Source: Dysgonomonas sp. Marseille-P4677
GTDB lineage: Bacteria > Bacteroidota > Bacteroidia > Bacteroidales > Dysgonomonadaceae
Assembly: GCF_016652235.1 (NCBI RefSeq)
Contig: NZ_JAEPKU010000024.1
Location: forward strand, 1 to 39,617
DNA length: 39,617 nucleotides
Direction: 5' to 3'
Positions 5,884 through 9,479 of this stretch are shown here, piece after piece. The notes beneath the pieces were generated by a model that searched no databases, was not told where the DNA came from, and saw only the letters and a list, made by a program, of their open reading frames with translations. Made by a program: the position numbers and the translations under genes. Positions within the stretch are counted from its first letter, which is position 1. The number at the start of each line of letters is the position of its first letter.

Positions 5884-5900
5884 TGTTCAAAAAGAAATAT

Positions 5901-7745
5901 ATGTGTGGAATAGTTGGATATATTGGATTTCGTGAAGCTTACCCCATTTTGATTAAAGGATTACACAGGCTTGAATATAGAGGATATGATAGTGCTGGTG
6001 TTGCAATCATAAACGAGGAGAATAAATTATCAGTGTACAAAGCCAAAGGGCGAGTTAAGGATTTAGAAGAATTTGCCCGCGATAAAGATATCACAGGTAC
6101 TATTGGTATTGCGCATACTCGTTGGGCTACGCATGGCGAACCAAGCAATGCAAATGCTCATCCTCATTACTCCCAATCAGAATCGTTAGCCCTTATCCAT
6201 AATGGGATTATAGAAAATTATGCGGTCTTAAAAGCTGAATTAATAAACAACGGATATACATTTCAAAGTAGTACCGATACAGAAGTTCTTGTACAGTTTA
6301 TCGAATATATTAAAGGAATAAATAACTGTGATCTCTTTTCAGCTATACAAATAGCTTTAAATCAGGTTGTAGGAGCGTATGCAATTGCCGTATTAGAAAA
6401 AGGAAACCCCGATCAGATCATAGCAGCCCGTAAAAGTAGTCCGTTGGTTGTAGGTATTGGTGAAGGCGAATTCTTTATTGGATCGGATGCTTCACCGATT
6501 ATAGAGTTCACAAAGAAAGTCGTTTATCTTGATGATGAGGAAATCGTGATAATTAAGCGTAATGAGGAAGCCAAAATTGTAACGATATCTAACATAGAAA
6601 AGACTCCCAAAGTAAAGGAGTTGGAAATGAATCTCAGCGAATTGGAACGAGGCGGTTATCCGCACTTTATGCTTAAAGAAATATTCGAACAACCCGATAC
6701 ACTTAAGAGTTGTATGAGTGGGCGTGTTAATATCGAAGGTACAAATGTTACATTATCAGGGATTATCGACCATAAGGATAAATTTATAAATGCAAAACGC
6801 ATAATAATTATAGCCTGTGGTACATCGTGGCATGCCGGCCTTATTGGTGAATATTTATTTGAAGAATATTGTCGCATACCTGTGGAAGTGGAGTATGCCT
6901 CAGAGTTTAGATATCGTAATCCGGTTATTTGTCCTGATGATATAGTGATTGCAATTTCACAATCGGGTGAGACTGCCGACTCATTGGCCGCTATCGAATT
7001 GGCACGTAAGGCAGGTGCGTTTGTCTATGGAGTATGTAACGTGGTTGGCTCTTCCATACCTCGTAATACCGATTCCGGTTCATATACACATTGCGGGCAT
7101 GAAATAGGTGTAGCTTCTACCAAGGCTTTTACTGCTCAAGTCACAGTTTTAACCTTAATGGCCCTGGCTATAGCAAAAGAGAAAGGAACAATCGAAGAAC
7201 AAAAATATCTTGAAGTTATAAAAGAATTACAACTTATTCCTTCGAAAATAGAGCGTGTACTTACTTTGAGCGATAAAATAAAAGAGTTATCTCTAATATT
7301 TACATATGCTCAGAATTTTATTTATTTGGGACGAGGCTATAACTATCCCATAGCATTAGAAGGGGCTTTGAAGTTGAAAGAGATATCATATATACATGCC
7401 GAAGGATACCCTGCCGCAGAAATGAAGCATGGCCCGATTGCTCTTATTGATAATGAAATGCCGGTAATAACGATTGCTACACATAGTGCAATTTATGAAA
7501 AAGTTGTAAGCAATATACAGGAAATAAAAGCCCGTAAAGGTCGGGTAATAGCAATTATAAATGAAGGTGATGAAACAATGAAAGCATTGGCCGACCATTA
7601 TATTGAGATTCCTGAAACAAAGGAGTGTTTAGATCCTTTATTGACGTCCATACCCCTACAATTATTAGCATATCATATTGCAGTAAATAAGAATAGAGAT
7701 GTCGATATGCCTCGTAATCTGGCAAAATCAGTTACTGTAGAATGA
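5901..7745 (+). CDS. glmS: Glutamine-fructose-6-phosphate aminotransferase (isomerizing)
   Basis: A 614-residue enzyme making glucosamine-6-phosphate from fructose-6-phosphate and glutamine, the entry step to peptidoglycan and LPS amino sugars. An upstream in-frame GTG at 5883 is rejected because the family needs Cys directly after the initiator Met as the glutaminase nucleophile. The ATG at 5901 gives MCGIVGYIG. The N-terminal class II amidotransferase domain shows HTRWATHG and the ENY segment. Two SIS isomerase domains follow, with ACGTSWHA, AISQSGETADS and LKLKEISYIHAEGYPA. The C-terminus DVDMPRNLAKSVTVE is the invariant GlmS end. The gene is monocistronic by context. I see no glmS ribozyme upstream. 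Confidence 0.98.
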   Translation: MCGIVGYIGFREAYPILIKGLHRLEYRGYDSAGVAIINEENKLSVYKAKGRVKDLEEFARDKDITGTIGIAHTRWATHGEPSNANAHPHYSQSESLALIHNGIIENYAVLKAELINNGYTFQSSTDTEVLVQFIEYIKGINNCDLFSAIQIALNQVVGAYAIAVLEKGNPDQIIAARKSSPLVVGIGEGEFFIGSDASPIIEFTKKVVYLDDEEIVIIKRNEEAKIVTISNIEKTPKVKELEMNLSELERGGYPHFMLKEIFEQPDTLKSCMSGRVNIEGTNVTLSGIIDHKDKFINAKRIIIIACGTSWHAGLIGEYLFEEYCRIPVEVEYASEFRYRNPVICPDDIVIAISQSGETADSLAAIELARKAGAFVYGVCNVVGSSIPRNTDSGSYTHCGHEIGVASTKAFTAQVTVLTLMALAIAKEKGTIEEQKYLEVIKELQLIPSKIERVLTLSDKIKELSLIFTYAQNFIYLGRGYNYPIALEGALKLKEISYIHAEGYPAAEMKHGPIALIDNEMPVITIATHSAIYEKVVSNIQEIKARKGRVIAIINEGDETMKALADHYIEIPETKECLDPLLTSIPLQLLAYHIAVNKNRDVDMPRNLAKSVTVE

Positions 7746-7815: not shown

Positions 7816-7823
7816 TATCTTTG
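7816..7823 (+). promoter_or_regulatory. -7 element for the Hint-like gene
   Basis: TATCTTTG is a perfect TAnnTTTG match 35 bases before the ATG at 7859. The predicted leader is about 30 bases. Confidence 0.6.
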
Positions 7824-7858: not shown

Positions 7859-8386
7859 ATGAAAATCAAGACTTTATTTTTTACACTGCTTTGCCTGCTG
7901 GTATTCAATAATAGCGTAAGGGCTCAAAGCTCTCTTGCTACAGGTACCCAAATAACAATGGCCAATGATACGAAAAAGGCTATTGATGAGATTGTTGTAG
8001 GAGATATTGTTTTGTCATTTAATATTAAAGATAAGGTATACGAGGAAGATAAAGTTAAAAGTATTGAAAAGATCATGTATTATCGTCTGGTACGTGTTAC
8101 ATTAGAATCGGGAGTGCAATTAACAATGACCGCTGATTATCCTATATGGGCAGAGAAAGGTTGGATTTCGGTCGATCCGGATCAAACTAGTGCAAACGGT
8201 CGAAATATAGATGTAAAAAGATGTCAGATAGGAGATTTTGTCCTATTTTATAATATAACAAGTACCGACTATATTGAATTGAGTACCATACAAGGTGTAA
8301 TGGAACCAACCCAAGCATATATGATAGAGCTTGAGGGTAGAGGTACAATTATAGCTAATGGATTCCTTGTCGGTCAGAAACAATAA
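7859..8386 (+). CDS. Secreted stand-alone Hint/intein-like domain protein, degenerate active site
   Basis: A 175-residue protein with a signal peptide (cleavage near A22). Almost the whole mature part matches the Hint (hedgehog/intein) pattern. It opens with SLATGTQITM, then has IDEIVVGDIVLSFN like the intein block A region (I.dl.vGD.Vls), then LTMTADYPIWAEKGWI like block B (T..HP.w...GWV), then a second GD motif (QIGDFVLFYN). It ends in YMIELEGRGTIIANGFLV, which mirrors Y.leVeg.htyfaNGilVHN. Catalytic positions differ: Cys1 is Ser25, the block B His is Tyr94, and the terminal His-Asn is Gly172-Gln173. Self-splicing or cleavage is therefore unlikely. A MenI-type thioesterase gene follows after 8 bases. 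Family by pattern; function unknown. Confidence 0.72.
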   Translation: MKIKTLFFTLLCLLVFNNSVRAQSSLATGTQITMANDTKKAIDEIVVGDIVLSFNIKDKVYEEDKVKSIEKIMYYRLVRVTLESGVQLTMTADYPIWAEKGWISVDPDQTSANGRNIDVKRCQIGDFVLFYNITSTDYIELSTIQGVMEPTQAYMIELEGRGTIIANGFLVGQKQ

Positions 8387-8394
8387 ATTGATAG

Positions 8395-8832
8395 ATGAAG
8401 CTCGATGCTAATAATATAAGAGAGCGGATAAAAAATACATTTATGGAGACATTAGATATCACATTCATCGAATCTGATGATGAAATGTCTCTCGAAGCTA
8501 TAATGCCAGTTACTCAGCAGATGACTCAAACTATGGGTATACTGCATGGAGGAGCAACTATTACGCTAGCAGAATCAGTAGCCGGAGCAGGTTCGAATGC
8601 TCTATGTGCCGGTGATGAACGGTGTTTTGGTATGCAAATAAGCGCCAGCCACATATCAAGTGCTCAAGTAGGAGAGGTAGTGCGTGCAATAGGTGTAATC
8701 CAACATAAGGGACGTTCTACTCATGTGTGGAATGTTGACGTAATTTCAGATACTACAGGCAAATTGATTTCTACAATCCGAGTGACTAACGCCGTAGTCA
8801 AACAAGTCGTTTATTTTAAGAAGACTGAGTGA
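8395..8832 (+). CDS. Hotdog-fold acyl-CoA thioesterase, MenI/YdiI-like (PaaI superfamily)
   Basis: A 145-residue cytoplasmic hotdog thioesterase of usual family length. The signature MGILHGGATITLAESVAGAGS carries the HGGA segment and the acidic residue (E in LAES) that activates water in the YdiI/MenI branch. In that branch the enzyme hydrolyses 1,4-dihydroxy-2-naphthoyl-CoA in menaquinone synthesis, which fits a Bacteroidota host. No other men gene is nearby, so the substrate is inferred. The start lies 8 bases after the Hint-like gene, and co-transcription is likely. Other PaaI-superfamily acyl-CoA substrates remain possible. Confidence 0.83.
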   Translation: MKLDANNIRERIKNTFMETLDITFIESDDEMSLEAIMPVTQQMTQTMGILHGGATITLAESVAGAGSNALCAGDERCFGMQISASHISSAQVGEVVRAIGVIQHKGRSTHVWNVDVISDTTGKLISTIRVTNAVVKQVVYFKKTE

Positions 8833-8936: not shown

Positions 8937-9479
8937 ATGAAAAAGTATGTATTTATAGCAATATTTGCCACCCTTTTGCTTTCGGCTTGTGGTGCGATGA
9001 AGGTCGCTGATATAGGGTATCTTTCGCAAGGCATGTCGTATAGTGAGGTGAATAGAATAATGGGAAATCCGAAACGAATCCTATCTTCAGATTATACTCA
9101 AGATGGCTTGATCGAAGTATTTGAATATCATACATATCAAAATGATGCATATGCTATAGAATTCTGGGATGGAAGATTGTCTCGGTATGATTTCATGTAT
9201 GAAAATAATGGTCCATCCACCATAGTAGTTCCTTCTCCATCCCGTCCACGACCTGATTATGTAGCACCATCTCGTCCGTCCAGACCATCAGAGCCTAGTC
9301 GTCCGAGTGGGGGAGGCAGGCCTGGTACATCTACATCCCGACCTGAAACCAAGCCATCAGAATCGGGTAGGCCAAGTAATGTAAGGCCATCTACTAGTTC
9401 GGGGCGAAACCCAAGCAGTAATATACAAAAAGAAGAAGACAAGAAGACCGACAATAAAGTAGATAAGGATAAGAAATAA
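8937..9479 (+). CDS. Lipoprotein with BamE/SmpA-like domain and Arg-Pro-Ser tail
   Basis: A 180-residue lipoprotein from the ATG at 8937. An in-frame GTG at 8934 only adds one residue. The signal ends in LLLSAC with lipidated Cys18. Residues about 28-90 (YLSQGMSYSEVNRIMGNP ... AIEFWDGRLSRYDF) resemble the BamE/SmpA fold, in which a short 'xGMsxxEVxxxMGxP' helix leads into a small sheet. From about residue 98 to 160 follows a low-complexity tail with repeated SRP/RPS units. The last residues are Lys/Asp-rich and likely disordered. The tail is highly basic and could contact peptidoglycan, LPS or other polyanions, but that is a guess. The gene ends in a strong terminator. Confidence 0.72.
   Translation: MKKYVFIAIFATLLLSACGAMKVADIGYLSQGMSYSEVNRIMGNPKRILSSDYTQDGLIEVFEYHTYQNDAYAIEFWDGRLSRYDFMYENNGPSTIVVPSPSRPRPDYVAPSRPSRPSEPSRPSGGGRPGTSTSRPETKPSESGRPSNVRPSTSSGRNPSSNIQKEEDKKTDNKVDKDKK

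Follow-up and report, generated by a model that had tools for sequence, protein, structure and literature searches.

An exported Hint domain in Dysgonomonas

We analyzed a 39,617-nucleotide stretch of DNA from Dysgonomonas sp. Marseille-P4677 (contig NZ_JAEPKU010000024.1), hereafter the window, and focused on a forward-strand gene (7859..8386) that encodes a 175-residue, apparently exported pseudo-Hint, that is, a Hint (intein-like) domain in which the catalytic residues have been replaced. The coding assignment draws on the open reading frame (ORF), on the recurrence of this short gene, as an ortholog, in 20 of 25 same-genus genomes (the window's included), and on the ratio of nonsynonymous to synonymous substitution rates (dN/dS) described below.

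The protein is apparently exported. Residues 1-22 (7859..7924, forward strand), judged from the sequence, resemble a Sec signal peptide with a predicted cut between Ala22 and Gln23, and the column table of our alignment has these two residues unchanged in all 18 sequences of the clade to which the window protein belongs (hereafter the degenerate clade). Such invariance fits the Bacteroidetes +1 Gln rule, by which signal peptidase I exposes a glutamine that becomes pyroglutamate (PMC5837995), and cleavage is therefore expected at this point. The predicted cut leaves only Gln23-Ser24 ahead of a domain that begins at Ser25, which bears out the proposal, in a first-pass annotation made from the letters of the DNA, of an exported protein with almost no N-extein.

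The same annotation held that the whole mature protein is one Hint domain, and the comparisons agree. Against a profile built from 16 intact Hints of bacteria, residues 25-173 (7931..8377, forward strand) align across 155 columns, with a probability of 100% and an E-value of 1.9e-50 in hhalign, where E-values refer to single-pair comparisons without a database. The window protein itself matches the Tetrahymena BIL2 structure at 3.3e-8 in phmmer, a 27-row family profile does so at 4.6e-18, and a Foldseek search with the predicted model of the window protein returns BIL2 (4.1e-9) and inteins as the best PDB matches. Two GD motifs lie at residues 48-49 and 125-126, as first noted, together with a block-F-like IIANG segment whose Asn167 (8357..8359, forward strand) is unchanged across the 27-row alignment. 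Segments that we take as blocks A, B, and F follow one another in the order expected of the Hint superfamily, on a β fold in a model of moderate confidence. Taken alone, the window protein scores below the Pfam cut-off for all Hint families listed (PF01079, 19.0 versus 29.7 bits). The mature part is a single Hint domain, and its likeness to the family is not due to chance.

Replacement of the catalytic residues

Active inteins and BIL domains have a conserved Cys1 or Ser1, a block-B histidine, and a C-terminal His-Asn pair, none of which is conserved in the window protein and its clade. Ser25 (7931..7933) stands at the Cys1 nucleophile position, Tyr94 (8138..8140) at the block-B His position of the TxxH motif, and Gly172-Gln173 (8372..8377) where inteins carry His-Asn (all forward strand), exactly the three replacements named in the first-pass annotation. 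The suggestion made there to examine the conservation of Ser25 and Tyr94 proved informative, as both vary over the 18 sequences of the degenerate clade, favoring catalytic loss. Cysteine is absent from position 25 (nine Ser, three Tyr, two Met, two Arg, one Ala, one His), and the block-B position holds six Tyr, four Cys, three Asn, two Leu, one Thr, one Ser, and one His, the last in L011. The Thr position of TxxH remains Thr (14) or Ser (4), and residue 172 is always Gly, followed by Gln, Leu, Ile, His, Ala, Val, or Thr. Among the 16 intact Hints, the Thr, His, and Pro of TxxHP are invariant, and Cys1 is present in all 15 that reach that position, the Cys1 of L056 falling just ahead of its sequence fragment. 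Two short relatives from the genus, L019 and L022, also retain both Cys1 and the block-B His.

The terminal His-Asn has a different history. Its absence from the window protein stands, but as a mark of this clade it does not, because 15 of the 16 relatives with an intact TxxH lack it too; nine end in VGQE, and L056 alone has His-Asn. The loss therefore predates the degenerate clade, and the pair was probably lost before Cys1 and the block-B His, judging from the distribution of these residues.

Comparison with characterized systems sharpens these differences. BIL2, of the Tetrahymena BUBL1 locus (PDB 6TMM, 6Y75), is the best PDB match both by sequence and in Foldseek, over nearly the whole domain. 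It is described in PMC8616854 as splicing and conjugating. Unlike BIL2, the window protein has no Cys1, block-B His, or terminal Asn and does not lie within a larger protein. Inteins are inserted in a host between two exteins, and here we find a stand-alone ORF with two residues ahead of position 25 once the predicted signal peptide is removed. The Hog/Hint domain of Hedgehog (PF01079; PDB 1AT0) shares the fold and, like the window lineage, lacks the C-terminal Asn chemistry. It differs in having a Cys nucleophile, a block-B His, a releasable N-terminal cargo domain, and the sterol-recognition region that is a feature of hedgehog proteins; the window ORF encodes none of them.

Could the domain still be autocatalytic, using Ser25 or another nucleophile without the block-B His to trim or transfer its two-residue N terminus? 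Ser occupies position 25 in half of the degenerate sequences, the window's included, and since Ser1 is functional in some inteins, weak residual chemistry is possible in those proteins; the TxxH Thr is Thr or Ser throughout, and the block-F Asn is invariant. Against this, the other nine sequences have Ala, Met, His, Tyr, or Arg at position 25, seven different residues occur at position 94 in an otherwise constrained domain, and a cleavage would free no more than two residues. Because neither the nucleophile nor the block-B His is conserved and the N-extein is so short, self-processing is unlikely as the selected function, and we regard continued autocatalysis as improbable.

Distribution, phylogeny, and selection

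Of 101 genomes of the family, 25 matched in our search. (Loci L028-L043 are the same as L002, L003, L005-L015, and L017-L019 and add no further sequences.) Of the same-genus genomes outside the 20 with the short gene, G028 has a two-domain form only, and no match was found in G012, G015, G017, or G027; completeness is 51% for G015 and 74% for G017. In a tree of 38 sequences, 18 of the 20 short genes form the single degenerate clade (support 100/99) with L019 as its sister (95/93), and this group is placed among proteins that carry a NADase_transloc domain ahead of a Hint domain.

The domain is under purifying selection. Seven of 10 pairs gave Nei-Gojobori (NG86) dN/dS values of 0.059-0.113, the other three being saturated, and in the three of the seven usable pairs with dS below 1 the values were 0.059, 0.062, and 0.113. 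A chance ORF or a pseudogene is ruled out by these ratios (0.06-0.11) together with the presence of the short gene in 20 genomes of the genus.

Thirteen residues are common to the degenerate and the intact short sequences: Ala27, Gly29, Gly48, Asp49, Tyr61, Val66, Leu82, Pro95, Gly101, Trp102, Ala166, Asn167, and Gly172. Leu52, Glu62, and Glu99 are unchanged in all 18 degenerate sequences and absent from both intact short ones, and Met73, Arg76, Tyr131, and Gly146 are likewise unchanged throughout the clade, and L019 has them too, whereas L022 does not. Residues of these two kinds, specific to the clade or to the clade and its sister, would fit re-use of the fold at a new site by an enzyme of another kind or by a structural part of the envelope. 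They match no recognized active-site pattern, however, and we give this explanation only a small chance.

Besides the short genes, the nearest Hint relatives in the tree are the NADase_transloc (PF25302)-Hint proteins, in which a C-terminal Hint follows an N-terminal domain. The family search yielded seven of these, with four more among 295 genomes of the order (together L020, L021, L023-L027, and L045-L048). Pfam PF25302 was matched in seven members of the 27-row alignment as well as in L020 and L045, and the NCBIfam model NADase_discoid scored above its cut-off in L021, L024, and L026; L046-L048 are assigned by eye, from a shared GCSWYCG segment. Like the window protein, the two-domain proteins lack a terminal His-Asn, and many end in VGQE; unlike it, they keep Cys1 and TxxH and carry a potentially releasable domain at the N terminus. 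Theirs is a hedgehog-like layout in bacteria, and from their sequences these secreted proteins could release or transfer the discoidin-like N-terminal domain. Descent of the short gene from such two-domain proteins is the origin we favor, on a tree with a weak backbone.

Stand-alone Hints with intact residues also occur. L019, L022, and L049 have apparent signal peptides and keep Cys1 and the block-B His. L064 (an ORF of 217 residues) is a further stand-alone Hint with an apparent lipobox, seen by eye, and intact Cys1 and DHP but no His-Asn; it is possibly a lipoprotein. These parallels weaken the first-pass view that free secreted Hints are unusual. In L051 and L055, the Hint, again without a terminal His-Asn, ends proteins with repeated YGFINEKG-like motifs, which we take to be WG repeats.

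The co-occurrence of forms raises the possibility that the short protein acts in trans on active Hints, for instance as a decoy for NADase_transloc-Hint proteins or by inhibiting their autoprocessing, and genomes G011 and G021 each hold both a short degenerate Hint and a two-domain Hint. The window genome, however, contains no second match in searches at E-values up to 1 (up to 1e-6 and 1e-10 with profiles), and only two of the 18 genomes with the degenerate form have one in the family search; action in trans appears very improbable.

Relationship to the AXH domain of ataxin-1

Residues 28-129 of the window protein (7940..8245, forward strand) resemble the Pfam AXH domain (PF08517) at a level just below threshold (30.9 bits, cut-off 33, E 4.1e-7), and a genome search recovered the same stretch at 31.6 bits. 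The Hint proteins L056 (73.6 bits), L050 (72.0 bits), and L049 (45.6 bits) pass the cut-off. Within the phylum, PF08517 turned up in the window's genome and in one other of the 296 searched, and it was absent from all 14 control genomes. L056 (ORF 1-1971) ends in VHN and then a short tail, and L050 likewise scored far above the AXH cut-off; an AXH annotation of these two proteins would hide their Hint identity.

As the Pfam AXH seed may contain bacterial sequences, we built bacterial-only profiles and did not rely on Pfam AXH alone. The alternative here, which concerns the AXH part of our reading only, is that two small β folds have converged and that ataxin-1 is no relative of Hint domains. 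The sequence matches run in both directions and oppose it: a bacterial-only profile finds ataxin-1 at 2.3e-11 (47.2 bits), whereas none of 1000 shuffles exceeds 4.9 bits and the top-scoring non-Hint of 1318 ORFs reaches 6.7 bits; ataxin-1 finds L050 at 3.7e-8 in phmmer; Pfam AXH matches the Hint with a terminal His-Asn at 2.5e-20; and the DHPF...GWSS pattern is retained in HBP1. Less favorable are the 18 degenerate sequences, which as a profile score ataxin-1 at 18.1 bits (E 0.016), and the comparison of AXH with the short clade in hhalign, at 86.8%; the link therefore rests on the intact Hints. AXH chains were absent from the best 50 of 258 Foldseek matches and present in the VIA-align comparison. 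On balance we consider convergence unlikely, and the AXH domain of ataxin-1 appears to belong to the Hint fold family.

The AXH domains of ataxin-1 and HBP1 (PF08517; PDB 1OA8, 4J2L, 1V06) resemble the window protein in sequence and in the fold of half the domain, and in ataxin-1 a Tyr replaces the block-B His, as in the window protein. A Capicua peptide is a ligand of AXH, which also self-associates. It differs from the window protein in lying within human transcription regulators, and the match stops short of blocks F and G. We lean toward the view that AXH is a Hint descendant and that the Dysgonomonas protein represents, independently and outside the cytoplasm of a bacterium, the same change from a self-cleaving domain to a binding module, with intact relatives in the same genus. 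In the open-access literature, we found nothing that joins AXH with an intein or Hint domain (subscription papers, Pfam clans, ECOD, SCOP, or CATH may record the link) and, judged by title and abstract opening, nothing on a fold common to AXH and hedgehog; on degenerate or inactive Hints, none of the matches listed contained the term "Hint domain".

Gene neighborhood and promoter

Upstream of the gene lies a conserved promoter-like element, TATCTTTG (7816..7823, forward strand), which fits TAnnTTTG, presumably the Bacteroidetes −7 consensus. In 19 of the 20 short genes, which are related rather than independent sequences, the motif stands 28-45 nt ahead of the start, and in L006 it lies 146 nt ahead; it occurs in 9.8% of shuffled 150-nt upstream regions. 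A correctly spaced upstream TTG accompanies it in eight of the 20, the window gene not among them.

Eight nucleotides past the stop codon begins a hotdog-fold thioesterase gene (8395..8832, forward strand; TIGR00369, 74.4 bits, cut-off 36.6), possibly co-transcribed with the pseudo-Hint gene. In answer to the question, raised at the outset, of whether this neighbor is constant, we found it adjacent to the short gene at 16 of the 20 loci, at a distance of some 20 nt or less in 15 of them and about 200 nt in L014; in L019 it lies about 3.3 kb away, and it was not found in the flanks examined of L012, L017, and L018. Adjacency is common but not universal, and we rejected a functional link with the thioesterase as a rule. 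Upstream, an aminotransferase-like gene with SIS and GATase domains (5898..7745, forward strand), of the glutamine-fructose-6-phosphate type and presumably glmS, directly precedes 14 of the 20 short genes. L022 directly precedes the same thioesterase as the other short genes, which suggests that it occupies the same locus, though the tree places it elsewhere; no glmS was found in the 1.2 kb upstream of it.

Among same-genus genomes without the short gene, G012, G027, and G028 have a thioesterase match, with no glmS match in the flanks examined (1.5 kb or less), and the incomplete G015 and G017 have no thioesterase match; no clean empty site was seen in any of the five. Farther downstream in the window, ORF 8937-9479 (forward strand) encodes a lipoprotein-like protein with a long Pro/Ser/Arg-rich tail and a GMSYSEVNRIMGNPKR segment, which we take to resemble BamE/SmpA proteins; nine of 16 loci (L028-L043) have a match to it on the downstream side of the short Hint.

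A probable pseudo-Hint of traceable origin

We think it fairly likely that the window protein is a pseudo-Hint, in which the catalytic residues have been lost and selection has kept the fold as an inert, presumably binding, module. Its ancestor would have been a secreted protein joining a discoidin-like NADase_transloc domain to a C-terminal Hint that at most cleaved on its own N-terminal side. From it, within the Dysgonomonas lineage, an exported Hint that stands alone would have arisen, and one clade would then have lost the nucleophile and the block-B His while purifying selection continued to act on its β domain. After export by Sec and removal of the signal peptide by signal peptidase, the mature Hint fold would start at Gln23, probably as pyroglutamate, and because that fold is the entire mature protein, nothing would be left to splice or release. 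The folded module, periplasmic or extracellular, may bind a peptide or another protein, with the cleft of the former scissile junction as a possible site. We infer that binding is probably its role, as we do the site, the final location, and a failure to cleave in the test tube.

Several observations, in addition to the Ser-bearing sequences discussed above, weigh against this interpretation. The AlphaFold model is of moderate confidence (pLDDT 71.2, pTM 0.48), and as a whole it superimposes poorly on BIL2 (RMSD about 14 Å). The tree leaves 14 of 35 inner branches open, and L022 falls apart from the other short genes on a long branch (1.29), its placement unsure. Synteny points to no binding partner, the neighbors being a probably cytoplasmic thioesterase, itself missing from beside four of the 20 loci, and glmS.

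The finding is most likely a pseudo-Hint of traceable origin and not an isolated oddity. Hint domains are known for self-processing, and a stand-alone degenerate Hint under strong selection shows another use of the fold, with intact relatives within the genus that make the transition from catalytic to non-catalytic testable. If AXH is indeed a Hint descendant, the domain of ataxin-1 and HBP1, which has been called an unusual OB fold, would gain both an origin and a logic for its peptide groove.
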